Shown here: piece by piece, positions 11,616 to 33,478 of the stretch | How positions within the stretch are numbered: position 1 is the first letter of the stretch | Layout of the letters: each line of letters begins with the position of its first letter | NCBI GenBank assembly: GCA_018823025.1 | Contig: JAHJJI010000093.1 | Coordinates: 1-34,169 of the forward strand | Direction of reading: 5' to 3' | Length of the DNA stretch: 34,169 bases | From: Gammaproteobacteria bacterium | GTDB lineage: Bacteria > Pseudomonadota > Gammaproteobacteria > Burkholderiales > Sulfuricellaceae | Position numbers and translations under genes: made by a program | The notes under the pieces: model-generated | The model's database searches: none | The model's input: the letters and a program-made list of their open reading frames with translations, nothing else | Told to the model about the DNA's origin: nothing

Positions 11616-12839
11616 TTAGATTGAGGATTGAGGGTGTACCAGTAATTCGATCCAGTGCCGCACCGGCACCTTGCTGACGCTCTCCAGATGTAACTGGCAG
11701 CCAATATTGCTGGTGACAATCACATCGGGGTCAGCCTGCAGCAACGCTGTAATCTTTTGATTCAGCAGTTGTTGCGACAATACCGGCTGCAGCAGGGTAT
11801 AAGTACCCGCTGCACCACAGCACAGATGGCTGTCTGCAACCGACGTCAGCGTATAACCGCAATATTGCAGAATCTTTTCAACCTCGCCGCCCAGTTTCTG
11901 TCCGTGCTGCAGCGTGCAGGAAGACTGGCATGCAACGCGTCGCCCCTTTCCGATGCCGGCAAACAGGTCCAGATTTTCATTGCGCAGAATCTCGCTCAAA
12001 TCACGCGTGAGGGCGCTGATGCGAGCCGCCTTGGCAGCGTAAGCCGTGTCGTCCTTGAGTGCGTGCCCATACTCCTTCACCATCACGCCGCAGCCGCTCG
12101 CGGTCATCACGATGGCTTCAATTCCTTGCTCGACATAAGGCCACCACGCATCGATGTTGCGGCGCATCATGTCTCGCGCGCTATCGGCTGCCGCCAAATG
12201 CTGGTGCATGGCGCCGCAGCAACCGGCCTGGGGCGCGCTGACCAGACCAATACCGAGCTTATCCAGCACACGTGCAGCAGCCGCATTGGTTGTCGGGGCC
12301 GCCAACGGCTGCACGCATCCCTCCAGCACCAGCATCAGGCGTTGATTCTGCGTTTGAGGGCGTGGCAGGGGTTTGCGCGCACGCGGTAGTTTGTGGCGCA
12401 GCATTGCCGGCAACAGCGGACGCGCAAGCCTGCCCAAGGCAAATGCCACGCGTAAGCGAGAGGTGTAAGGCAATACGCCCAACAACACGTGCCGCACGAT
12501 ATTGGCCCACAGCAAGCGTGGCGAACGTTTTTCGATCTCCTGGCGCCCGATATCAATGAGACGACCAAACTGCACGCCGGATGGGCAGGTGGTTTCGCAG
12601 GAGCGGCAGGTCAGGCAGCGATCCAGATGCAAACGTGTCCTGGCGCTGGATTGATTGCCTTCCAGCATTTCCTTGATCAGATAAATCCGTCCGCGTGGTC
12701 CATCCAGTTCGGAACCCAGCAACTGATAAGTGGGGCAGGTGGCGTTGCAAAACCCGCAATGCACGCAGGCACGCAAAATCGCGTCGGCTTCGGCAATTTC
12801 TGCGCGCTGCAAAAAACTGTGATCGATTGCGGTTTGCAT
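11616..12839 (-). CDS. glcF: Glycolate oxidase iron-sulfur subunit GlcF
   Basis: 407 residues from ATG 12839, the same length as E. coli GlcF; an upstream extension would run into glcE. Two 4Fe-4S motifs are intact: C25-C28-C31-C35 and C75-C78-C81-C85, each ending in Cys-Pro. Two CCG domains follow, with AGCCGAMHQH and HLCCGAAGTY. GlcF passes electrons from the flavin subunits GlcD and GlcE to the quinone pool at the inner membrane. It begins 4 nt after the glcE stop, consistent with translational coupling. No residue looks out of place. Confidence 0.96.
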   Translation of the reverse strand: MQTAIDHSFLQRAEIAEADAILRACVHCGFCNATCPTYQLLGSELDGPRGRIYLIKEMLEGNQSSARTRLHLDRCLTCRSCETTCPSGVQFGRLIDIGRQEIEKRSPRLLWANIVRHVLLGVLPYTSRLRVAFALGRLARPLLPAMLRHKLPRARKPLPRPQTQNQRLMLVLEGCVQPLAAPTTNAAAARVLDKLGIGLVSAPQAGCCGAMHQHLAAADSARDMMRRNIDAWWPYVEQGIEAIVMTASGCGVMVKEYGHALKDDTAYAAKAARISALTRDLSEILRNENLDLFAGIGKGRRVACQSSCTLQHGQKLGGEVEKILQYCGYTLTSVADSHLCCGAAGTYTLLQPVLSQQLLNQKITALLQADPDVIVTSNIGCQLHLESVSKVPVRHWIELLVHPQSSI

Positions 12840-13908: not shown

Positions 13909-15398
13909 CAGAAGCGATCCAGTTCAGGGTGAGGAAGCTGGCCATGATGCACATGCATGGCGCCCAATTCAGCACAGCGGTGCAGGGTGGGCACTGCCTT
14001 GCCCGGGTTGAGCAAGCCAGAAGGATCAAAGGCGGCCTTGACTGCATGGAACTGGCTGAGTTCGCCACTTTGGAACTGGATGCACATCTGGTCTATCTTT
14101 TCCATCCCGACGCCGTGTTCACCGGTGATCGTGCCACCGACCTCTACACATAACTGCAGGATGCGTCGACCAAATTCCTCTGTGCGCGCCAGCTCACCCG
14201 GCTTGTTGGCATCGAACAGAATCAGCGGATGCAGGTTGCCGTCACCGGCATGAAAGACATTGGCCACCGGCAGGCCATATTCCGCCGACCACTGACTGAT
14301 CTGACGCAATACCCGTGGCAGATGGCGGCGCGGGATGGTGCCATCCATGCAGTAGTAGTCCGGCGAAATGCGGCCCACTGCCGGAAAGGCCGATTTGCGT
14401 CCCTTCCAGAAAAGCTGCCGTTCGGCTTCATCCACAGCAGTGCGCACTTCGGTGGCACCACTCTGTGTCAGCACTTTGCGCACGGCCATTATGTATTCGG
14501 ATACTTCTGCATTCGTCCCATCCAATTCGCACAGCAGTATTGCTTCGGCATCGCGCGGGTAGCCCGCATGGGCAAAATCTTCAGCTGCCTGGATGGCGAG
14601 CTTGTCCATCATCTCCAGGCCCGCAGGAATAATGCCGGCAGCAATGATGGCACCGACGGCTTCACCGGCCTTCACCACATCATCAAAAGCGGCAAGGACA
14701 ACCTGCGCACGCTCCGGCCTGGCTAATAGTTTTACCGTCACCTCGACAATAATGCCCAGCATGCCTTCAGAACCCGTCATCAGGGCAAGCAGATCATAGC
14801 CTGGCGCATCCAGCGTTTCAGCACCGATAGTGAGGAGTTCCCCCTCCATGGTGACGACCTTCAGCATCAGGATGTTGTGTACGGTAAGGCCATACTTGAG
14901 GCAATGCACGCCACCGGAATTTTCTGCGACATTGCCGCCTATGGTGCAGGCAATTTGAGAGGAAGGATCAGGAGCGTAATACAGGCCATGCACGGCAACA
15001 GCTTCGGAAATGGCCAGATTGCGCACGCCCGGCTGCACCGTGGCCTGCGCATTCTGCGGATCGATATTCAGAATTTTCTTGAATTTGGCCAGACTAACCA
15101 ACACGCCATCACTCGATGGCAGCGCCCCACCGGACAGGCCAGTGCCCGCGCCACGCGCCACTACCGGCACCCGTAACTTATGACACAAACGCATGATGGC
15201 TTGCACCTGCGCGATTGTTTCCGGCAAAACCACGACCAGCGGCAAACGACGGTATACCGATAGCCCATCACACTCGAACGGGCGCAAATCCTCAGGGTCG
15301 GTCAAAACCAATGAAGCGGGTAGCAAAGAAAGAAGTCCTTTTAGCAGAACTTCTTGAGCGTGGGCATGCGGATTAATTGCGGTTTTTTCTGCCGTCAT
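13908..15398 (-). CDS. glcD: Glycolate oxidase subunit GlcD
   Basis: 496 residues, catalytic flavoprotein subunit. The FAD-binding PCMH domain (about 50-230) has RGAGTGLSGGALP and GGNVAENSGGVHCLKYG. The FAD-oxidase C domain carries NVFHAGDGNLHPL and GGTITGEHGVGMEK, with the metal/substrate histidines. It oxidises glycolate (or D-lactate) to glyoxylate. It is the first gene of the glcD-glcE-glcF-aminotransferase operon, divergent from nadC. ATG 15398 has only a weak upstream purine run (ATAGGC). In an organism fixing CO2 by the Calvin cycle this operon would recycle phosphoglycolate made by RubisCO oxygenation; no RubisCO gene is in the window, so that is inference. Confidence 0.96.
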   Translation of the reverse strand: MTAEKTAINPHAHAQEVLLKGLLSLLPASLVLTDPEDLRPFECDGLSVYRRLPLVVVLPETIAQVQAIMRLCHKLRVPVVARGAGTGLSGGALPSSDGVLVSLAKFKKILNIDPQNAQATVQPGVRNLAISEAVAVHGLYYAPDPSSQIACTIGGNVAENSGGVHCLKYGLTVHNILMLKVVTMEGELLTIGAETLDAPGYDLLALMTGSEGMLGIIVEVTVKLLARPERAQVVLAAFDDVVKAGEAVGAIIAAGIIPAGLEMMDKLAIQAAEDFAHAGYPRDAEAILLCELDGTNAEVSEYIMAVRKVLTQSGATEVRTAVDEAERQLFWKGRKSAFPAVGRISPDYYCMDGTIPRRHLPRVLRQISQWSAEYGLPVANVFHAGDGNLHPLILFDANKPGELARTEEFGRRILQLCVEVGGTITGEHGVGMEKIDQMCIQFQSGELSQFHAVKAAFDPSGLLNPGKAVPTLHRCAELGAMHVHHGQLPHPELDRF

Positions 15399-22570: not shown

Positions 22571-22610
22571 CTTACCCGACCGTCCCTTGTCCCGCAAATG
22601 GAGGCCCACC

Positions 22611-22982
22611 TTGAAATTCCACCTGGCCGACGATGCCGGCTTAAATCTTTTCACTGGCTACGACATCGATTATGTCGCGGTCAACCATCAACACTACCAA
22701 GCCAGCCTGATCGTGCTGCCGGATCGGATCGTCGAAGCATGGCCGCCGCAAAGCTTTGCAGCGCTGGAAGCTGCCCATTTTGAAGCCATCCTGGAATTTA
22801 TGCCGGAGATCGTACTGCTCGGCACCGGCAGCACCCTGCGCTTTCCCCACCCCCGCCTGACGGAAGCATTGATCCGGGCGTATATCGGCGTGGAGGTGAT
22901 GGACACCCCGGCCGCCTGCCGCACCTACAACATCCTCGCGTCCGAGGGCAGAAAGGTTGCGGCTGCGTTGCTGCTGGACTAG
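22611..22982 (+). CDS. Mth938-like (DUF498/NDUFAF3-type) domain protein
   Basis: 123 residues starting at TTG 22611. That codon is chosen because GGAGG lies 6 nt upstream and the protein then begins LKFHLADDAGLNLFTGYD, the family's usual start. The Mth938/DUF498 fold is indicated by YQASLIVLPDRIVEAWPP, the glycine-rich PEIVLLGTGSTLRFP, and the C-terminal GVEVMDTPAACRTYNILASEGRKVAAAL. The eukaryotic relative NDUFAF3 is a complex I assembly factor; the bacterial role is unknown. It ends 2 bp from the stop of the convergent GGDEF-EAL gene. Confidence 0.88.
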   Translation: MKFHLADDAGLNLFTGYDIDYVAVNHQHYQASLIVLPDRIVEAWPPQSFAALEAAHFEAILEFMPEIVLLGTGSTLRFPHPRLTEALIRAYIGVEVMDTPAACRTYNILASEGRKVAAALLLD

Positions 22983-22984
22983 AT

Positions 22985-25900
22985 TTACAAGGTCTTGATC
23001 ACGGCATTCTGCAAGTCGGCCAATTTTTCCAGCACCTGGTCCTTCAGTTCCACCAGCTTGGGGCATAAATCCATGGCTGCCCGAATATCGCCGGAATTGT
23101 GCAGACGGATAATTTCCACACCCACCTCGTGCACCATGACATGGCTCGACTCCAGGTCCGCATAGAGGGCAATATGCCCATAGCACTCCTTGCCGCGACC
23201 ATAATACCAGTGTCCAAAACGGCAATGCTGGTGACTCTTTAATTCGCCATCGCTCAATATCAAGCTGCTACCACTGACCACCATCATCACCCGCTTTACC
23301 CATTGCACATGATCGACTTGCGCCATCATCAAAGGAAAATCTTCCAGATCCCATCGCACCTTTGCCCAGCGCTGCCAACTTGGGTCGGGCCTGAACTGCT
23401 CAAGCCATGACGGCACCGCTGCGGCGGGCATCGGATGGGCAATACCATGCCCTTGCGCCATGCCACAACCCAGGCGCAGCAGCAGCACGCCCTGCTCCAT
23501 GGTTTCGACGCCCTCGGCAATCACATCCAGATTGAAAATGCTCGCCATGCTCACCACCCCTTCGATGATGGTGAGGTCGCCCGTATCCTCCAGCATGTTG
23601 TGTACGAACGACTGGTCGATTTTCAGCATATTGGCGGGCAGGCGCTTGAGGTACGCCAGCGACGAATAGCCCGCGCCGAAGTCGTCTATCGCGAAGGTCA
23701 CCCCCAGTTCCTGGCAGCCCAGCATGATTTCACGCACCGTCTGGAGATCATCGAGCGCAGCGCATTCCAGGATTTCCAGTTCCAGCGCGCCAGGCGGAAC
23801 CGTGGGATATTGCGCAAGCATGTCCCGCAACTGACCGACGAATTCCAGCTTTCTGAAATGGCATGACCCCAGGTTAATACTCACCTTGGTATACAGGCCC
23901 TCTTCTCTCCACACCGCCAATTGCCTAAGCGCTTCCCGCAGCACCCACAGACCGATCTCCATGATTAGTTCGGTCCGTTCGATCAGCGGCAGATATTCCA
24001 TCGGCGGCACCACTCCGCGCTCAGGATGGTTCCAGCGCAGCAGCGCTTCAAAGCCGAATACCTCGCCGCTGCGCATGTTCACCTTGGGCTGATAGTAGAG
24101 CTGCATCTCGCCCTGCCTCAACGCCTGAGCAATGCGCTCCTGTTCCTGGTAAAGAAAGCGCACTTCCTTATCGAGTGAAATATCGAACAGGCAATAGCGG
24201 TTGCGCCCGGTTTGCTTGGCCTGATAAAGAGCCTGATCGGCATGTCGCAGGAGGCTGCCGGAGTCTGATTCGTTGAGCGGATAGATGGTCGCACCGATGC
24301 TGGCGGTCAACTCCAGCCTCCAGCCATTGACTTCGTAGGGCCGCGCAATGTCCGTAAGAATCCGCTGCAGCGCCGCATCCACCTCTTCCGTATTGGCGAC
24401 ATTAGTGAGCAACAGCACGAACTCGTCGCCCCCCAGGCGAGACACCGTATCGCCGCCACGCACGCTGAGCGTCAGGCGGTGCGCCACTTCGACCAGGAGC
24501 AGGTCACCCAGTTCGCGGCCGTAAAGTTCATTAATTTCCTTGAATTTGTCCAGGTCGATAAAACCCACCATCAGCAGCTTGCCCGACCGTTTTGAGCTGG
24601 AGATTGCCAGTTCGAGGCGGTCTGCCAGCAAGGAACGATTTGGCAACTTGGTTAGTGCATCATGCCCTTCCTGCCAGGTGATTTGCTGCATCAGCCGGCG
24701 CTTTTCGCTGACATCATGAAACACCAGCACGCAACCCAGCACATCGCCATTGCCATCGCGGATCGGCGCAACAGACTCCTCGATGGAAACCTCACGCCCG
24801 CCACGAGTACGCAGCAAACCGTTGCTCTCCAGTTCGATCACCGTACCCGGAACCAGCATGCGTGCCGCGTGAGTTGCCAATGGAAGTCGTGGAGTTTCAC
24901 CGACCACGTTGAATACTTTCTGCAATTCGAGACCATGCGCTTCCCAGGATGCCCAACCAGTCAACTGTTCCGCCACCGGGTTGAGATATTCCACACGCCC
25001 CATCGCATCGGTGGTAATGACCGCATCGCCTATCGAGGATAAAGTCACCTGTGCTCGTACCTTTTCGGCGCGAAGCTCCGCTTCCGCCTGCTTGAGGGAA
25101 GTGATATCGCGGCCTTCCGCAATCAGCCAGGCAATCTCCTTGTTTTTCTCAAGAAATGGCTTCAGGGAAAAATCCACGGCGCGCGGCATCCCATCCGACC
25201 CCAGGAAATGGGTTTCGTAGCGAACGAATTCACCGTGGGCGGCGCGATCAACCGCCTCGCGCAGACGCGGCGCTTCCGCAGGGTCCCACCATGGCGTATC
25301 CCAGAGCGGGCGACCAAACACCTCGCTGGCTTTGATCCCGGCAGCATCCATGATGCCCTGATTGGCTTCCAGCAATATGCCTTGCCTGTCCACCAGACCA
25401 GTGAACTGGAATGTTTGATCGAAAATTGCCCGAAACCTGTGCTCGCTCTGATCCAGCGACTGCAGCAAATGCTCCACCTCTTCCGCCATTCGGTTGAAGG
25501 CCTGAGCCGCCCTCTTGATTTCCGGATCGCCTCCTGCCTCGACCCGCGCACTGTAGTCGCCCTGCTTGAAACGGATAGCGGAAATCGACAACTGGTGCAG
25601 CGTTTTCAGGTTGCCGCGCAGCAATAAAACAAGGAGCAGGATGACTGCAAAATTCGCCAGTGCAATGATCTTGAGCTGCGTTGACAAATGCTGCCACAGC
25701 CGATTAATCGACGGCACTGGATCGATGCGCAACTTCAGCGTACCGAAATTCGCTTCACCGACATTGATGGATGAAATCAGCTCCTCAGGGGGAATAGGAG
25801 CGAAACGAACAAACCACTCGGGCGCGGAAAGCGGCACTTTGCCGCCGTCCTGAATGACCTGCAAGCCGGAGCCTGACTGCCACTCAATACGACCAATATT

Positions 25901-26176
25901 ATTATGTTCTCCGATCTGAGCGCCAAACAGTTGCTGAATAGCGGCGACATTATTGTTAACCACGTACTTCGGCAACAACTGATCAAGGAAACGCTTCGTA
26001 TCACGCAGCTCAGTCAGATGGTGTTCGCGCACATAGGCGCTTTCATCCGCCATCTGTAGATAGCTGCGCAGGCCACCCGAAGAAAAAATCACCAGTACCA
26101 CAAAGAACAGCAAACGTGGCAGCAGCCCTATCTTGTCCCATACCGGGAATTTCCCTGGACTACTCACCACGTTCAC
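22985..26176 (-). CDS. Membrane GGDEF-EAL c-di-GMP protein with two PAS domains and a C-terminal CZB domain
   Basis: 1063 residues. Membrane helices at about 18-36 and 172-190 flank a periplasmic sensor. A HAMP region (about 190-245) and two PAS domains (about 250-365 and 375-495) follow. The diguanylate cyclase domain has GGDEF at 582-586 with an RGGD inhibitory site five residues before it. The phosphodiesterase domain has E710-A-L, DDFGAGYSS and LKIDQSFV intact. The C-terminus is a CZB zinc-binding domain with H956, C985 (CRFGHW), H1012 and H1016. It should both make and break c-di-GMP, with zinc or oxidant state as one input. The frame opens at GTG 26176; GTG codons 3 and 4 sit better behind GGGAG, so the true start may be slightly inside. 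It lies 77 bp downstream of a paralogue. Confidence 0.93.
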   Translation of the reverse strand: MNVVSSPGKFPVWDKIGLLPRLLFFVVLVIFSSGGLRSYLQMADESAYVREHHLTELRDTKRFLDQLLPKYVVNNNVAAIQQLFGAQIGEHNNIGRIEWQSGSGLQVIQDGGKVPLSAPEWFVRFAPIPPEELISSINVGEANFGTLKLRIDPVPSINRLWQHLSTQLKIIALANFAVILLLVLLLRGNLKTLHQLSISAIRFKQGDYSARVEAGGDPEIKRAAQAFNRMAEEVEHLLQSLDQSEHRFRAIFDQTFQFTGLVDRQGILLEANQGIMDAAGIKASEVFGRPLWDTPWWDPAEAPRLREAVDRAAHGEFVRYETHFLGSDGMPRAVDFSLKPFLEKNKEIAWLIAEGRDITSLKQAEAELRAEKVRAQVTLSSIGDAVITTDAMGRVEYLNPVAEQLTGWASWEAHGLELQKVFNVVGETPRLPLATHAARMLVPGTVIELESNGLLRTRGGREVSIEESVAPIRDGNGDVLGCVLVFHDVSEKRRLMQQITWQEGHDALTKLPNRSLLADRLELAISSSKRSGKLLMVGFIDLDKFKEINELYGRELGDLLLVEVAHRLTLSVRGGDTVSRLGGDEFVLLLTNVANTEEVDAALQRILTDIARPYEVNGWRLELTASIGATIYPLNESDSGSLLRHADQALYQAKQTGRNRYCLFDISLDKEVRFLYQEQERIAQALRQGEMQLYYQPKVNMRSGEVFGFEALLRWNHPERGVVPPMEYLPLIERTELIMEIGLWVLREALRQLAVWREEGLYTKVSINLGSCHFRKLEFVGQLRDMLAQYPTVPPGALELEILECAALDDLQTVREIMLGCQELGVTFAIDDFGAGYSSLAYLKRLPANMLKIDQSFVHNMLEDTGDLTIIEGVVSMASIFNLDVIAEGVETMEQGVLLLRLGCGMAQGHGIAHPMPAAAVPSWLEQFRPDPSWQRWAKVRWDLEDFPLMMAQVDHVQWVKRVMMVVSGSSLILSDGELKSHQHCRFGHWYYGRGKECYGHIALYADLESSHVMVHEVGVEIIRLHNSGDIRAAMDLCPKLVELKDQVLEKLADLQNAVIKTL

Positions 26177-26253
26177 TCCCGGGTTTAATTATTATCCGAG
26201 CAAGCCATTCATTTCAAATAGTCTAACAGCATTTTCAGTCCCTATAGCGGTTT

Positions 26254-29097
26254 TTAAATCACCATGGCATTCTGCAGATCCGCCAGTTTATCCAGCACCT
26301 GATCCTTCAGTTTCAGCAGCTGCGGACATAGTGACTCAGCAGCCCGGATATCGCCAGCATCGCGCAATCGAATGATTTCCGAACCGACTTCATGCACATG
26401 GGCGTGGATCGGCTCCAACTCGGCAAAAACCGGCAGATGGCCGTAGCGCTCCCTGCCTATACCATCGAACCATAAACCGAAACGGCAGTGGTGATGATCC
26501 GTCAACTCTGCCTTGGCCAGCGCCATCGCGGCACTGCTGACCGCTGTCGTCACCTGTTTGACCCATTTCAAATGATCCTGCTGCGCCACCAGCAGCGGGA
26601 AGTCAGCCAGATCCCAGCGCATGTCCGCCCAGCGCAGCCAGGCTGGATCGGGTCTGAACTGCGCACACCATGCCGGCACGTCGACTGCGGGCATGGGGCG
26701 GGCGATGCCATAGCCCTGCGCCTCATCGCAGCCCAGGCGCATCAGCATCACGCCATGCTCCGTTGTTTCGACCCCCTCGGCGATCACGCCCAGCTTGAAA
26801 ATACTCGCCAGACTCACCACGCCCTCGATAAGGGCCAGATCATCCGGGTCTTCCAGCATGTCGCGCACGAACGACTGATCGATTTTCAGAGTATTGGAGG
26901 GCAGGCGCTTCAGGTAAGACAACGATGAATATCCGGTACCGAAATCGTCCAGCGCGAACTTGACACCCTGCTTCTGGCAGGCAGCCATGATCGCCCGCAC
27001 CGACTGTATATCCTCGAGCGCGGCGCTTTCCAGAATTTCCAGTTCCAGAGAACCGGGCGAAACCGTGGGATATAACTCAAACAGGTCGCGCAACTGGTCG
27101 ACCAAATCCGTGTTCTGAAAATGACGCGCCGCGATATTGACGCTCACCGTGGTGCGCATCCCCGCTTTCTCCCATACCGCAAGCTGGCGCAAGGCTTCCT
27201 GCAAAACCCATAAGCCGATTTCCACGATCAGATCGGTATGTTCAACCTGCGGCAGAAAGTCCAGCGGCCCGACCAACCCGCGCTCCGGATGCTGCCAGCG
27301 CAGCAGCCCCTCGAAACCGATAACCTGGCCGGTACGCATGTTCACCTTGGGCTGATAATATAGCCGCAGCTCTCCCTGTCGAAGCGCCTGGGCGACACGT
27401 TCCTTCTCGCGAAAACGGGAACGCGTCTGCTGGTCGAGCGACACATCGAAAATGGAATAGCGATTACGGCCCGCCTGCTTGGCCTGATACATGGCCTGAT
27501 CGGCGTGGCGCAACAGGCTTTCTGGATCGGCATCGTTGAGCGGGTACACCGTCACACCGATACTGGCGGAGACCTGCACCTCCCGGCCGTCGATATGGTA
27601 GGGCCTGGCAACATCGATCAGAATCCGGTCCAGCGCCACCTCCATATCGTCAATATCATCAACATCGTTGAGCAGTAGCACGAACTCGTCCCCACCCAGC
27701 CGGGCCACCGTATCCCCTCCGCGCACGTCATGCAGGAAGCGTTGCGCCACCTCTTTCAATAACTGGTCGCCCAGCTCATGCCCATAGAGATCGTTGACCT
27801 CCTTGAATCCGTCCAGATCGACAAGGGCCAACACCAGCAATTTATCCTGCCGTTCCGAATTGGAAATCGCCTGATCCAGCCGGTCGGATAACAAGGAACG
27901 GTTGGGCAACCCGGTCAGCGAATCGTGCCCAGCCTGCCAGGTAATTTGCTTGATCAGCTTGAGCTTGTCGCTGACGTCACGAAAAGTCAGTACGCAACCC
28001 ATCACGCTGCCATCCTGATTGCGAATCTGCGTGAAGGAAAAATCGATATCGAATTCGTGGCCGGCGCGCGTCACCAGCAGGGAATTGATTTCCGGCTTGA
28101 CTACCTCGCCATAGAGTATCGCCTGGCAGCTAAGATTCAGCGGCAATCGGGTAGTTTCGCCGATGACTTTGAACACCTCGTGCAGTGACCGCCCCTGTGC
28201 TTCTGCCACGCTCCAGCCCGTCATCTGCTCCGCCAGTGGATTGAGATACTCCACCTGCCCCGACATGTCGGTGGAGATCATCGCCTCGCCAATCGAGGAC
28301 AGAGTGGCCTGGACGCGCGATCTCTCGGTACTGAGATTGTTCTCGCTTTGCAGCAATGACTGCAGCAGCTGCTCCACTTTTCCCACCATACTATTGAAGG
28401 CGTGGGCGGCAGCCCGGATTTCCGTGGCGCCTCTGGCCTCTACCCGCACGGCACGATCACCCTGCTCGAAACGAAGGGCAGCAGCCGATAACTGGCTTAG
28501 CGTTTTCAGGTTGCTGCGCAGCGCCCATGCAGTCAGCAGCAGAATAACCAGCATCACCACGCAAACAATTTTGATCTGAACGACCAGATGGCTCCACACG
28601 ATATTGATTACCGGGGTGAAATCGGCGCGCAGTGTCAGCGTGCCGTAGTTCCCTCCGCCAGACTCGATGGGGAACGATTCTTCCATCTCGGGAATGGCGG
28701 CAATGCGCAGTAACCAGTCAGGTGCTTCAAGCCGCACCGGCACAGGGCGTTGGGCAAGCAGCGAACCTGAGCGCGACTTCCACTCGATGCGACTGATATA
28801 TCCACGCTCTCTGACCTGGGAATCGAGCAATTTCCGGATCCGGGCAAAATCAGCGATCACCTCCGGCTCAGCCAGTAATAACGCCAGGGAACTCCCGGTC
28901 TCGCGCAGTTCCGCCTGAAGGTGGCCGCTAAAGTAGGCACTCTCGTCGACAATCAGGAGATAGCTACGCGTGCTGGCCGCAGTCAGTATCACCAGCACAA
29001 TGACGAGCATCAGACGAGGCAATAGCCCGACACTTCCCCATAACGCCAATAATTTTCCCGGTTTTCGCACTACGCCAGCACCCCCTGATCCAAACAT
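26254..29097 (-). CDS. Membrane GGDEF-EGL c-di-GMP protein with one PAS domain and a C-terminal CZB domain
   Basis: 947 residues, paralogue of the next gene. It has the same plan: two membrane helices around a periplasmic sensor, HAMP, then a single PAS (about 265-385), GGDEF at 468-472 with RGGD five residues before, an EAL-type domain, and a C-terminal CZB domain with H842, C871 (CRFGLW), H898 and H902. The signature of the phosphodiesterase domain is E596-G-L in FEGLLRW, not EAL; DDFGTGYSS and LKIDQSFV are intact, so activity is possible. ATG 29097 has no clear ribosome site. Compared with its neighbour it lacks the first PAS domain entirely, the sequence being joined at the same point after LLQS. 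The two genes probably arose by tandem duplication and may be co-transcribed. Confidence 0.93.
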   Translation of the reverse strand: MFGSGGAGVVRKPGKLLALWGSVGLLPRLMLVIVLVILTAASTRSYLLIVDESAYFSGHLQAELRETGSSLALLLAEPEVIADFARIRKLLDSQVRERGYISRIEWKSRSGSLLAQRPVPVRLEAPDWLLRIAAIPEMEESFPIESGGGNYGTLTLRADFTPVINIVWSHLVVQIKIVCVVMLVILLLTAWALRSNLKTLSQLSAAALRFEQGDRAVRVEARGATEIRAAAHAFNSMVGKVEQLLQSLLQSENNLSTERSRVQATLSSIGEAMISTDMSGQVEYLNPLAEQMTGWSVAEAQGRSLHEVFKVIGETTRLPLNLSCQAILYGEVVKPEINSLLVTRAGHEFDIDFSFTQIRNQDGSVMGCVLTFRDVSDKLKLIKQITWQAGHDSLTGLPNRSLLSDRLDQAISNSERQDKLLVLALVDLDGFKEVNDLYGHELGDQLLKEVAQRFLHDVRGGDTVARLGGDEFVLLLNDVDDIDDMEVALDRILIDVARPYHIDGREVQVSASIGVTVYPLNDADPESLLRHADQAMYQAKQAGRNRYSIFDVSLDQQTRSRFREKERVAQALRQGELRLYYQPKVNMRTGQVIGFEGLLRWQHPERGLVGPLDFLPQVEHTDLIVEIGLWVLQEALRQLAVWEKAGMRTTVSVNIAARHFQNTDLVDQLRDLFELYPTVSPGSLELEILESAALEDIQSVRAIMAACQKQGVKFALDDFGTGYSSLSYLKRLPSNTLKIDQSFVRDMLEDPDDLALIEGVVSLASIFKLGVIAEGVETTEHGVMLMRLGCDEAQGYGIARPMPAVDVPAWCAQFRPDPAWLRWADMRWDLADFPLLVAQQDHLKWVKQVTTAVSSAAMALAKAELTDHHHCRFGLWFDGIGRERYGHLPVFAELEPIHAHVHEVGSEIIRLRDAGDIRAAESLCPQLLKLKDQVLDKLADLQNAMVI

Positions 29098-29108
29098 TTC
29101 ATAAATCT

Positions 29109-29239
29109 ACCACAGAGGCGCGGAGACACAGAGAAAACCATGCGCCAGAGGGTTAACCTGTTTTCCATCCACAACCCCGTTTAGCGCTGCCCTTTGCCGC
29201 AACTTATCTGAAACAAAAAACGCTCAGCGTCTCTGTCGT
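29109..29239. repeat. 131-bp intergenic element with 17-bp inverted ends
   Basis: ACCACAGAGGCGCGGAG (29109-29125) and CTCAGCGTCTCTGTCGT (29223-29239) are inverted copies with 14 of 17 matches. The ends are of the CACAGAG/CTCTGTG kind that recurs as dispersed intergenic repeats in many proteobacteria. No gene lies inside. It fills most of the gap between yrfG and the upstream end of the GGDEF gene. Confidence 0.6.
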
Positions 29240-29254
29240 GAAAAACTCATACCC

Positions 29255-29908
29255 TCATCGCGGAATAATTTCCAGAAAGTCATGAATGGCATCGAATTCC
29301 GCCACATCCTTGGCAGGCAGTTGCGTGTCCGGTCGATGCACCGCGAGCAGATGGGCGATGCCATAATTCCGTGCCGAGCGCAGCACCGGCAAGCTGTCGT
29401 CCACCAGCAGCGTGGCAAGAGGATCGTAGCGCTCGGCGGACTGAAGCTTGTCCCAGAACCCGGGATGCTCTTTGGGCACGCCGATGTCGTGGGCACAGAT
29501 GACCGAATCAAAAAAACCATCCAGACGGGTTTTGCGCATCTTCAAGGCCAGGCTCTTGTGGTGGGCATTGGTGACCAGCACGACGTGCCGACGGCCGCCG
29601 CGCAGCGCCGCAAGAAAGTCGGTGACATGCGGATGCACGGCGATGAGATGCTCTACCTCCTCCTTGAGCTGGGCGATGTCCAGCCCCAGTTCACGCGTCC
29701 AGTAATCCACACAATACCATTCCATGGTACCCACCACCTTGTGGTAGCGTGGCGCCAATGCATCCTGCGCTGCCTGATGGCTCAGGCCGTGTTTTTCGGC
29801 GTAGCGCAGCGGGACGTGCTCGAGCCAGAAATGGTTGTCGAAATGCAGGTCGAGCAGGGTGCCGTCCATATCGAGGAAAACGGTCTGTATGGTGTTCCAG
29901 GCTAGCAT
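29255..29908 (-). CDS. yrfG: HAD-superfamily GMP/IMP nucleotidase, YrfG type
   Basis: 217 residues. HAD motif I is D13-M-D15 in VFLDMDGTLLDL; motif II is the VLVTNAH strand, the lysine is in GVPKEHPGFW, and motif IV is LLVDDSLPVL. The cap is helical. The start MLAWNTIQTVFLDMDGTLLD and HFDNHFWLEHVP match YrfG of E. coli, which dephosphorylates GMP and IMP. It is a cytoplasmic protein. ATG 29908 lies 7 bp from a heptamer tandem repeat, and the gene ends next to the 131-bp inverted-repeat element, so it sits between two repeats. There is no functional link with the signalling genes around it that I can see. Confidence 0.88.
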   Translation of the reverse strand: MLAWNTIQTVFLDMDGTLLDLHFDNHFWLEHVPLRYAEKHGLSHQAAQDALAPRYHKVVGTMEWYCVDYWTRELGLDIAQLKEEVEHLIAVHPHVTDFLAALRGGRRHVVLVTNAHHKSLALKMRKTRLDGFFDSVICAHDIGVPKEHPGFWDKLQSAERYDPLATLLVDDSLPVLRSARNYGIAHLLAVHRPDTQLPAKDVAEFDAIHDFLEIIPR

Positions 29909-29914
29909 TTTATT

Positions 29915-29977
29915 GAGTCCTGAGTCCTGAGTGCTGAGTGCTGAGTGCTGAGTGCTGAGTGCTGAGTGCTGAGTGCA
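29915..29977. repeat. Heptanucleotide tandem repeat, nine units
   Basis: Two GAGTCCT units (29915-29928), six GAGTGCT units (29929-29970) and one GAGTGCA (29971-29977), without interruption. An inverted copy, ACTCAGGACTCAGCACT, follows at 29986-30002 inside the 3' end of the hybrid kinase gene. The unit is far too short for a CRISPR repeat. Confidence 0.97.
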
Positions 29978-29983
29978 AAGATT

Positions 29984-32900
29984 TTACTCAGGACTCAGCA
30001 CTGTTTTTTCACTCGGCACTATATTTAAAGCCTCATCGATCGCGGTAAGCAGCTTGTCGACCGCTATTGGTTTGGTAACAAAATTCGTGAAGCCGGCTTC
30101 CAGCGCCAGTGCGATATGACGGGGGGTGGCGTCCGCGCTCACGGCAATCACCGGAATAGTGCAAAGCTGATCATCTTCACGCAGAACGCCAAATGCTTCC
30201 ATGCCGCTCATGCCGGGCAGGTTCATGTCCATCAGGATAAGGTCTGGCCGAGTGGTGTGCAGGAGTTCCAACCCCTGCTCTGCGGTCAAGGCCGAAATCA
30301 GCGTCAAGTCCGGGCGTCGACTTTTAAGCACACTGCTCACCAGCGCCTGATTCGCCGAATTGTCTTCGATATACAACAGCACATGGCCGGTATTAGCAGC
30401 AACAGGAGCCACCCCGGCAGTCGGGTCATCGTCGCCGTACTCCGGCAATTCGATCCAGAAAGTCGTTCCTTCGCCCTCCCTGCTTTCAACCCCGATTCCG
30501 CCACCCATCAGCTCCACCAGGCGCTTGGCGACAGCCAGCCCGACACCGGTACCTTGGATCTGTAATTTGTCCGCGTCCAGCCGGTTAAAAGACACGAACA
30601 ATTCATCCAGCCTGTCGGCCGGAATGCCGGCGCCAGTATCGGTCACGCTCACCTTCTGCCAGCCGGGGGCGGAGCGCTGGCATGCCAGGGTGATCGTACC
30701 CCCCTCACGGTTGTATTTGATCGCGTTGGAAAGCAAATTGAGCATCACCTGCTTGAAGCGGGTGTAGTCAGCCCAGACAAAGCACTCGCCGCAGGCCGAC
30801 ACATGTTCTTTGATCATTAGCTGGCGCTCGCTCGACAAGGGCGAAACCAGATCGATGCATTCCTGCACCGCCTGAGCCAGCATCACCCTCTCCAGATGCA
30901 TCTGCATTTTACCGGCCTCGATCCTGGCAAGATCGAGAACCTCGTTGACCAGAGCAAGCTGATGCCAGCCGGCCTGGATAATATGCTTGACGTTTTCGCT
31001 CTGGGAAGGCGACAGCGGCTCCACCGAGTCATACTCCATCAGCTGCGCAAATCCGAGGATGGCATTGAGTGGGGTGCGCAATTCGTGGCTCATGCGCGAG
31101 AGGAATTCGGACTTGGCGCGGTTGGCCTGTTCCGCCTCTTCCTTGGCGCGCAGCAGCTCCTGGCCGGACCGCATGTTTTCGGCGGCCAGCCGCAGCGATT
31201 TGATGCCGTAGGCGAGGTTCCCGGCCAGATCCCGCAGCAGTTCAACCTCGTCCTTCTCGAACCCGCCGGCAGTGGCCGAATAAACTGTCAGCACACCGGC
31301 CGGATCGTCATCCAGCGACAAGGCAATCACCGCAGCGTAACCGCGCGCCAGCGCCTCTTCGCGCCACGGCGTCATGATGGGATCGGTGGCGATATTTTGG
31401 ACCAGACAATGCTGGCCACTTCGAATCGCCACGCCGATCGGCCCCCTGCCGTATTCGCTGTTGGCGTCCCAGACCACGCCAGCCTTCCCCAGATAGTCCA
31501 GCTCCGCACCCGCCACCGCGACCGGACGCACCGATTTCGCCGCGTCTTCCATGGCAAAACCGACCCAGGCCATGCGATAGCCGCCGGCATCCACGCAAAT
31601 CTGGCAAATCTCATGCAGCAGTTGATTTTCGTCCCTGATGCGCACCAGCGCCTCGTCGCACGAGTTCAGCATTTTCAGCGTGCGGTTAAGCTTGACCAGC
31701 GCTTCTGCCGACTGCTTGCTCGCCGTAATGTCGGTACGGATCGCCACATACTGGTAGGGCTTTCCCGAGTGGCCCAGAAAGGGGACGATGGTGGTATCCA
31801 CCCAATAGTAGCTGCCATCCTTTTTGCAGTTGCGGATCTCGCCCCGCCACACCTCGCCGCGCGCGATGGTCGTCCACATCTGTATAAAAAAACCATGGGG
31901 ATGGTAGCCGGAATTGAGCAGGCGATGATTCTGCCCGAGCAGTTCCTCGCGGGAATACTGGCTGATCTCGCAAAACCTGTCGTTGGCGTAAACAATCTTG
32001 CCGGCGGGGTCAGTAATCGCCACGATCGAATGCTGATCCAGGGCGAATTTCTGCGATTCCAGCTCACCCAGAGTTTTTTCGAGCATGAGCGCGCGTTCCG
32101 CCAACTTCTCCTCGAACTGTTTGCGCTCGGCGATTTCCACTTCAAGCTGCCGATTGCTCTCGTGCAGCTCATGGGTACGCTCTTTGACGCCCTGTTCAAG
32201 CGCCTCATGAGAGTGCGTAAGCTCACGAAAATTTTTCCCCAGGCCGACCGCCATGTCGCCAAAATTGGCGACCAGTGTATTGATTTCGATAATCGGACTG
32301 GCCGGGAGATAGACGCTCTCTCCTTCGAGCACTTTCCATCTCAGATTGGTCGAAGCGTCCGCCAGCCTGGACAGCGGGTCGACGAGTCGGTAGCTGACCA
32401 GCCTGCCCAGCACAAAAATCAATACAGCGAAGCCCAGCATTGACCGTAGGCTGCTGAAAAAAGCCTGCCGCATCGCCTTCTGATAGAGTTCGCCGGGAAT
32501 TTCCACCAGCAGGGTCAGCCCGCCATTTTCCGGCAGTGCCGTTGCCCTTTCGAAATAATAACCCTCTCGATAAATCGCGTCGGCGGTAATAATGTGAGGC
32601 GCCTGGCTTTTGCCGTCCAGGGTAGATCCTGGGGCCAGTCTGATGTTGCCTTCATGCGCATGAATCTGGCCGGGAACGAGATCGCCGCGCGATGCGGCAA
32701 CAATACGCCCGGCCCGATCAAGAACTGTCAGTGTTATTTGACCTTGGAAGTCATGCGCTTTCAACTCCGAGGCCATTTCTGCTGGATCGGAATGCCCGCT
32801 CAACTCTTGCACCAAAGCATCGGAAAGAAAACTCAGCTCCCGGCCGATATTGGCCTCTATCATCCCCTGCTGATGGCGAATGCCGGATGCGGTCAAAACC

Positions 32901-33478
32901 AGGAGCGGCAGCAGCGCCGCAATCAACAGTAAAGTGAATATCGCCTGACGCAGCGAGATTTTCTGTCTGCTATGCGAGGACCCGCCCAGCAGGGTCGGCA
33001 ACTGCATGATCAGAAGAGCGGCTATTGCGTTGCCGATGCCGTTGACACCATTGCGCAGTGCATAATAGGTGGCCATACTGCTGTCGCCGCTGCCGACCCA
33101 ATAATTGAGCAGCCAGGTTGCGGGCATGCCGATCAGCAGCCAGTAAACGCTGTCCAGCGCAACGATATTGCGCCGGCTGTACTGGCAGGCAAAGATCAGG
33201 GCGATTGCCTCGCCGCCATACAAGAGCGGGCCGAACGGGTGATGCCAGACGGCAACCAGGGGAATGATGGAAACGGCGCCGACCACCAGAGCCCAGAACC
33301 GACCGAGTGTCCGGGCCGCAATCAGCACGGCGATGCTGCCGAACAGGATTTCGACGCCGGGGAATAACCATAGCGTAAAATGATTGCCCAGCACACCCGC
33401 AAGGGCTAAAACCAGCGAGGCTGCAACGGCTTTCAACGAGAATTTCGACTGCCCAAATAGGAGCTCTTTGTCCTGCAT
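29984..33478 (-). CDS. Hybrid sensor histidine kinase (multi-TM, PAS, GAF, HisKA, HATPase, receiver)
   Basis: 1164 residues. An N-terminal multi-helix membrane sensor (about 15-170) is followed by a helix near 180-200, an extracytoplasmic region (about 205-340), a helix near 345-365, a HAMP-like segment and a coiled coil (about 415-480). Then come PAS (about 485-605, ending [13 protein letters not shown]), GAF (about 620-775), HisKA with H798 in [13 protein letters not shown], a full HATPase ([32 protein letters not shown]), and a receiver with D1084 in [10 protein letters not shown] and the TKPIA lysine. The phosphate probably passes on to an unlinked Hpt or regulator. ATG 33478 follows AAGGTAAAAT. 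The last residues (VLSPE) are encoded by repeat-like DNA next to the heptamer array. It is divergent from the gene at 33596. Confidence 0.93.

Follow-up and report, generated by a model that had tools for sequence, protein, structure and literature searches.

CZB domains have been described in several settings, each of which resembles in part the two tandem proteins presented here, P1 and P2. E. coli DgcZ (YdeH, PDB 3t9o/4h54) shares CZB sequence, fold and c-di-GMP output with the pair, but its CZB is N-terminal and followed by a GGDEF domain only, with no EAL domain or membrane part, whereas in the pair the CZB is C-terminal and an EAL domain is present. In the sections of the literature drawn on here, zinc-bound DgcZ is reported to be inhibited, the CZB to pass from an ordered zinc-bound to a disordered zinc-free state, and the affinity of DgcZ for zinc to be subfemtomolar (PMC8262984), whilst hypochlorite together with zinc is reported to raise DgcZ activity (PMC8846402). 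TlpD-like and McpA chemoreceptors carry a C-terminal CZB as the pair does (PMC8262984), yet their output is a chemotaxis signalling domain, and neither P1 nor P2 has an MCPsignal match at E<=1; for Salmonella McpA, part of a 2026 preprint has the CZB reading zinc availability as a redox proxy (PMC13370339). The MID domain of DosC (PF21118, PDB 4zvc) has a CZB-like fold, as in the pair, but lies mid-protein, and the pair retains the full zinc site. Lastly, LapD has the same periplasmic domain family and GGDEF-EAL order, but the pair lacks the docking Trp, keeps intact catalytic signatures, and adds PAS and CZB domains.

The original prediction had treated the arrangement itself as unusual. However, a 2021 CZB census, in the portion used here, already lists EAL-containing cyclases and EAL-CZB proteins which likewise unite GGDEF, EAL and CZB, with the 3His/1Cys site and a Trp at His+3; a periplasmic LapD/MoxY domain and a tandem arrangement, both seen for P1 and P2, go unmentioned in that portion (PMC8262984). 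The GGDEF-EAL-CZB combination is already known and little studied, and our search of the open-licence literature found no biochemistry of an EAL-CZB protein. We consider it likely, if well short of certain, that P1 and P2 act as a two-input c-di-GMP switch, with a periplasmic signal at one end and cytoplasmic zinc or an oxidant at the other.

The tandem locus and its history

The window, the whole stretch of 34,169 nucleotides that was analysed, corresponds to contig C85; the genome it belongs to measures 3.35 Mb, and among named relatives Sulfuricella sp. T08 stands nearest (86% in the best-matching segment of the P2 tail). The hybrid histidine kinase, nucleotidase, P2 and P1 genes form a minus-strand run with gaps of 75, 157 and 77 bases (Table 1). 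The DUF498 gene keeps its place in the related loci L096 and L097, and in the family genome G003 a HAD gene with near-identical ends stands where the GMP/IMP nucleotidase gene is found here; this nucleotidase could process the GMP at the end of c-di-GMP degradation. A search of the window for a Zur-type box, whose pattern we take to be GTTATANNATAAC, returned a single site at 2 mismatches against 1.49 expected, at 11845 and far from the pair. Scans of positions 22600-30200 returned 5 promoters (3.7 expected) and 9 terminators (6.8 expected), and since the promoter count is close to expectation, a minus-strand promoter-like site between P2 and P1 (26217-26188) is not above chance.

Table 1. Features of the tandem locus, with window coordinates and the evidence for each.
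Feature	Coordinates	Strand	Evidence
DUF498 gene, downstream and conserved, given for context only	22587..22982	+	Pfam
P1: LapD/MoxY-HAMP-PAS-PAS-GGDEF-EAL-CZB, 1063 aa, GTG start	22985..26176	-	ORF and Pfam
P1 CZB, residues 956-1023 (H956, C985, H1012, H1016)	23108..23311	-	Pfam 48.9 bits, genome search, residues
P1 EAL, residues 680-915, signature motifs present	23432..24139	-	Pfam, residue reading, 4rnh alignment
P1 GGDEF, residues 505-660, RGGD I-site and GGDEF	24197..24664	-	Pfam, residue reading
P1 HAMP, residues 191-235			Pfam
P1 periplasmic LapD_MoxY_N, residues 39-161, without LapG-docking Trp	25694..26062	-	Pfam; loop: weak alignment, E 0.82
P2: LapD/MoxY-HAMP-PAS-GGDEF-EAL-CZB, 947 aa	26254..29097	-	ORF and Pfam
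P2 CZB, residues 842-909 (H842, C871, H898, H902)	26371..26574	-	Pfam 50.5 bits, AlphaFold2, Foldseek, residues
P2 EAL, residues 566-801, EGL for EAL, Glu retained	26695..27402	-	Pfam, residue reading
P2 GGDEF, residues 390-546, RGGD I-site and GGDEF	27460..27930	-	Pfam, residue reading
P2 periplasmic LapD_MoxY_N, without LapG-docking Trp	28594..28947	-	Pfam; loop read by eye
GMP/IMP nucleotidase (HAD), directly upstream of the pair	29255..29908	-	NCBIfam PRK14988 209.2 bits, cut-off 189
Hybrid histidine kinase	29984-33478	-	

That two such genes lie in a row had been called striking, a view we would temper: the two genes are local duplicates, and the genome that carries them has 42 EAL matches. 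Judged by CZB positions and frame lengths, tandem CZB frames above 700 aa occur in 2 of 22 family genomes, this one (G000) and G003, a count in which several fragmented assemblies could conceal further pairs. The P2 ortholog is 94.5% identical in G003 and 81.3% in T08, the P1 ortholog 87.8%, and P1 and P2 are 58.3% identical to each other; in the tail tree P1, P2 and the T08 P2 fall closest together, with weak support. In T08 a convergent DUF498 gene directly follows the P2 frame (L097: 9016 and 9039, stop codons excluded), and none of the six CZB matches of G004, probably the genome of this strain, lies in a frame of P1 length, from which we take P1 to be missing there. The simplest reading of these sequences would be a within-lineage duplication older than the P2 split, then loss in T08. 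Compared with G003 at the DNA level, the first ~470 residues of P1 are 93-98% identical and its GGDEF-EAL-CZB part 69-93% (60-column windows), with identity falling near residue 480. The output half of P1 has probably been swapped by recombination, with all zinc ligands retained.

Catalytic and periplasmic domains

The proteins had been predicted to be membrane-bound, to carry both GGDEF and EAL domains, and to place a periplasmic domain at the end opposite the CZB. All of this is borne out: TM-like segments at 16 and 168 in P1 and at 23 and 171 in P2 (hydropathy) bracket a LapD_MoxY_N domain that scores over its Pfam cut-off in both proteins, and both catalytic domains are present with their signatures. 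A third, weaker hydropathy peak lies inside the EAL domain of each protein and is taken as the domain core. Pfam finds two PAS domains in P1 and one in P2. Both proteins have the complete signature motifs of GGDEF, I-site and EAL, with residue roles that we presume to hold in P1 and P2, and the GGDEF-EAL chain 4rnh ('Motility regulator') aligns with 416 residues of P1. Going by their families, P1 and P2 probably both synthesise and degrade c-di-GMP. Could they instead be one-way phosphodiesterases, with a GGDEF domain that binds GTP allosterically and a CZB that tunes the EAL domain only? This reading, which overlaps with the two-input switch, is possible, though we would lean against it: in NCBIfam both score best against the phosphodiesterase DibA (422.6 and 439.7 bits, under its cut-off of 980), and the nucleotidase gene upstream of the pair, with the HAD gene in the same place in G003, would suit it, but neither P1 nor P2 lacks any part of the GGDEF motif or the I-site.

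The periplasmic domain raises the question of whether the pair could be LapD-type c-di-GMP receptors that hold the protease LapG. In favour of such an identity, LapD_MoxY_N exceeds its cut-off, no LapD_MoxY_N match is found in the genome outside P1 and P2, and two LapG-family (PF06035) matches lie on contig C50 of the same genome. The GWxQ loop is described, in the part of the source used here, as the LapG-docking motif (PMC4359373); in its place P1 has GEAN, by a weak alignment to 4u64 (E 0.82), and P2 has GGGN, read by eye. Six LapD-like proteins found in the family (L098-L103; scores of 130.6-162.2 bits, frames 643-692 aa long), also read by eye, all have the docking Trp, four of them with the full GWxQ, and in all six the EAL DDFG motif is altered, whereas it is intact in the pair; the Trp is absent from all four of L104, L105, L106 and L107 (by eye). 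Moreover, the NCBIfam LapD equivalog gives 172.9 and 170.5 bits against a cut-off of 1020, and the LapG genes adjoin ~690-aa proteins, one of which has PAS and HD_5 domains on examination. We thus reject LapD identity on the Trp-less loop, the intact DDFG and the missed equivalog cut-off, and regard it as highly improbable. Considering the lack of the docking Trp, the LapD_MoxY_N domain of P1 and P2 is more likely a sensory input than a LapG dock, and so a sensor rather than a LapD output.

The LapG-family genes themselves lie at L095:9325-10044 (-) and 14065-14742 (+). Each adjoins one of the ~690-aa proteins, which have similar ends, and the one examined also has a sub-threshold dCache match. 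As the pair accounts for all LapD_MoxY_N matches of the genome, an HD-domain protein may replace LapD here.

The CZB domain and its zinc site

A CZB domain at the end of both proteins, as originally predicted, is confirmed: Pfam CZB (PF13682, curated cut-off 29.4 bits) matches P1 with E 8.4e-13 and P2 with E 2.8e-13, the four ligands of each stand where they had been placed (Table 1), and these positions give the 25- and 21-residue spacings. A Trp sits three residues past the first His. A phmmer search of the PDB with the P2 tail finds the DgcZ CZB (E 1.5e-5), and the AlphaFold2 model of this tail (residues 800-947, 29-row alignment; pLDDT 92.8) has the expected four-helix fold; predicted helices contain the three His, and the Cys immediately precedes a helix. 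In Foldseek, its top PDB match is the DgcZ CZB 3t9o_B (prob 1.00) with a modest E of 5.8e-3, no match reaching 0.001, and its second is the DosC MID domain; VIA-align puts the DgcZ CZB at rank 10 (Z 11.7) behind a top-ranked unrelated sensor bundle (13.0), and does not separate CZB from other four-helix bundles. Since helical bundles resemble many folds, the case for a CZB rests more on the sequence profile than on the fold. Zinc binding and dimerisation of the P1 and P2 CZBs are inferred from the families to which they belong. The ortholog CZBs also score over the cut-off (52.3 and 55.5 bits in G003, 58.4 bits in T08), the P1 CZB region is only 67.6% identical to that of G003 yet retains all four ligands, and dN/dS over the CZB region is 0.27, 0.23 and 0.19 in three ortholog comparisons.

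The least expected result concerns the first zinc His. We aligned 59 EAL-linked tails, from 46 best-scoring-relative loci, 10 family loci, the pair and a third paralog of the same genome (L010:5610-8387, -). All four ligands are complete in 36 of them and the first His is missing from 23, and no tail misses another ligand while the first His is present; the Cys is found in 53/59, and the two later His in 55/59 and 52/59. Of the first-His-less tails, 20 group together in a single clade (SH-aLRT 100; the tree was a quick one with no bootstrap, and the branch is long), and three further losses are separate: in the third paralog, which has Ile at this position, in L033 and in L074, which, like L034, is a long branch of unsure placement. 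The clade is still homologous to tails with a complete site by hhalign (prob 98.9, E 1.2e-17, 140 columns), keeps the Trp in 20/20 rows, and gives a model of pLDDT 93.7 for which Foldseek ranks the DgcZ CZB first, at an insignificant E of 0.22; Pfam CZB is matched at E<=0.01 by 12 of its 20 rows against 29/29 full-site rows. The ligands are also invariant in alignment A2, which proves nothing as its motif filter requires them; this filter excluded the full-site tails L027, L028, L029, L054 and L066, and L109 and L122 were outside its source list. With the first His gone from 23 of 59 tails, a complete zinc site is evidently not required for the domain to persist.

How, then, might the CZB serve P1 and P2? 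As a two-input switch, they would be membrane-anchored paralogous c-di-GMP enzymes that receive sensory signals at both termini, in which the periplasmic LapD/MoxY-type domain and the cytoplasmic PAS domain(s) would act via HAMP on GGDEF-EAL. The C-terminal CZB dimer, with its intact 3His/1Cys site, would bind cytoplasmic zinc very tightly and, when loaded, fix the relative arrangement of the two EAL domains; zinc loss or Cys oxidation would loosen the bundle and shift the balance between phosphodiesterase and cyclase. Zinc or oxidant control of phosphodiesterase output is plausible by likeness to DgcZ and TlpD. The direction of control and the physiological signal are guesses: as zinc-free DgcZ makes more c-di-GMP, the zinc-loaded state would favour phosphodiesterase activity and the zinc-free or oxidised state cyclase activity.

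On the other hand, given the affinity of DgcZ, the site in P1 and P2 may be always loaded and purely structural. The CZB would then be a zinc-stapled dimerisation element for the EAL dimer that carries no signal, leaving regulation to the periplasmic and PAS domains alone, a reading that we regard as unlikely, though worth keeping in mind. It draws on that reportedly subfemtomolar affinity (PMC8262984), on the 20-row sister clade, in which the zinc site is lost while the Trp and the predicted fold remain, and on the separate Pfam entry for the CZB-like domain of DosC (PF21118); against it, the Cys is kept in 53/59 tails, seemingly more than a purely structural bundle needs, and signalling is reported for the CZBs of DgcZ and TlpD in the part of the source used here (PMC8262984). 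A protein of the P1/P2 type would reveal whether the CZB governs c-di-GMP synthesis, degradation or both, and the series from full-site to first-His-less proteins of the same architecture offers natural controls for the role of the zinc site.

Distribution and a possible CZB network

PF13682 is found in 22/22 family genomes (120 matches), and in 34 of the 114 genomes of a class sample that includes our own (71 matches; 30 genomes over the cut-off), the sample admitting only genomes with a completeness of 90% or more, a limit that the family search did not have. CZB is expanded in the family by these counts and, given kinship, the excess may go back to a single expansion rather than to 22 events. 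GGDEF-EAL-CZB occurs in at least 10 of the 22 genomes: G000, G001, G003, G004 (as T08 record L013), G018 and one protein of G021 are Pfam-verified, and the others, including G005, G011, G015 and G019, rest on the motif. The 20 family stretches had been picked by frame length instead of randomly, and L115, L118, L119, L120 and L124, unclassifiable by the motif scan, were left uncounted. Beyond this set, among the 80 best-scoring relatives, 46 continue past the EAL domain for 100 residues or more with a tail that aligns with the CZB tails, which is no unbiased rate, as the search was queried with EAL-CZB tails and the 80 are the best-scoring of 454 confirmed loci, not a random sample; the other 34 had no detected 100-residue tail, some ending at the EAL domain and some being truncated. 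L112, from another genus, has the same layout, LapD_MoxY_N included.

Our own genome has six CZB matches: the pair, the third GGDEF-EAL-CZB paralog, a DgcZ-type CZB-GGDEF cyclase (L011:4289-5212), and two short frames, one of 148 aa in which Pfam finds a CZB and nothing else, the other of 134 aa, for which the scan covered CZB alone. No CZB chemoreceptor is seen in this genome. According to the part of the census used here, species seem to own either CZB chemoreceptors or CZB cyclases, not both (PMC8262984). A CZB chemoreceptor and a GGDEF-EAL-CZB protein are found together in G003 (both by Pfam), in G015 (Pfam and motif, respectively) and in G001 (motif and Pfam, respectively).

Perhaps, if the McpA idea is extended to sulfide, the CZB set of the sulfide-oxidising Sulfuricellaceae, made up of chemoreceptors, DgcZ-like cyclases, GGDEF-EAL-CZB enzymes and lone CZBs, could form a zinc-availability network that senses the sulfide/oxygen boundary, because sulfide removes zinc from solution by zinc sulfide precipitation. 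The tandem would add a periplasmic signal, and first-His-less paralogs would be zinc-blind or weaker-binding partners. Sulfuricella oxidises sulfur compounds, and our literature search for Sulfuricella together with c-di-GMP found nothing; we hold this network to be a doubtful proposition.

Two further proteins broaden the range of architectures. In G021, the GGDEF-EAL-CZB protein at L121:392-3268 has a phosphonate-binding-like domain at its N-terminus. On the Aeromonas caviae plasmid pKAM497_1, typed as conjugative, a HAMP-PAS-GGDEF-EAL-CZB gene (L129:2855-6067; CZB 44 bits) lies two genes from a recombinase gene.
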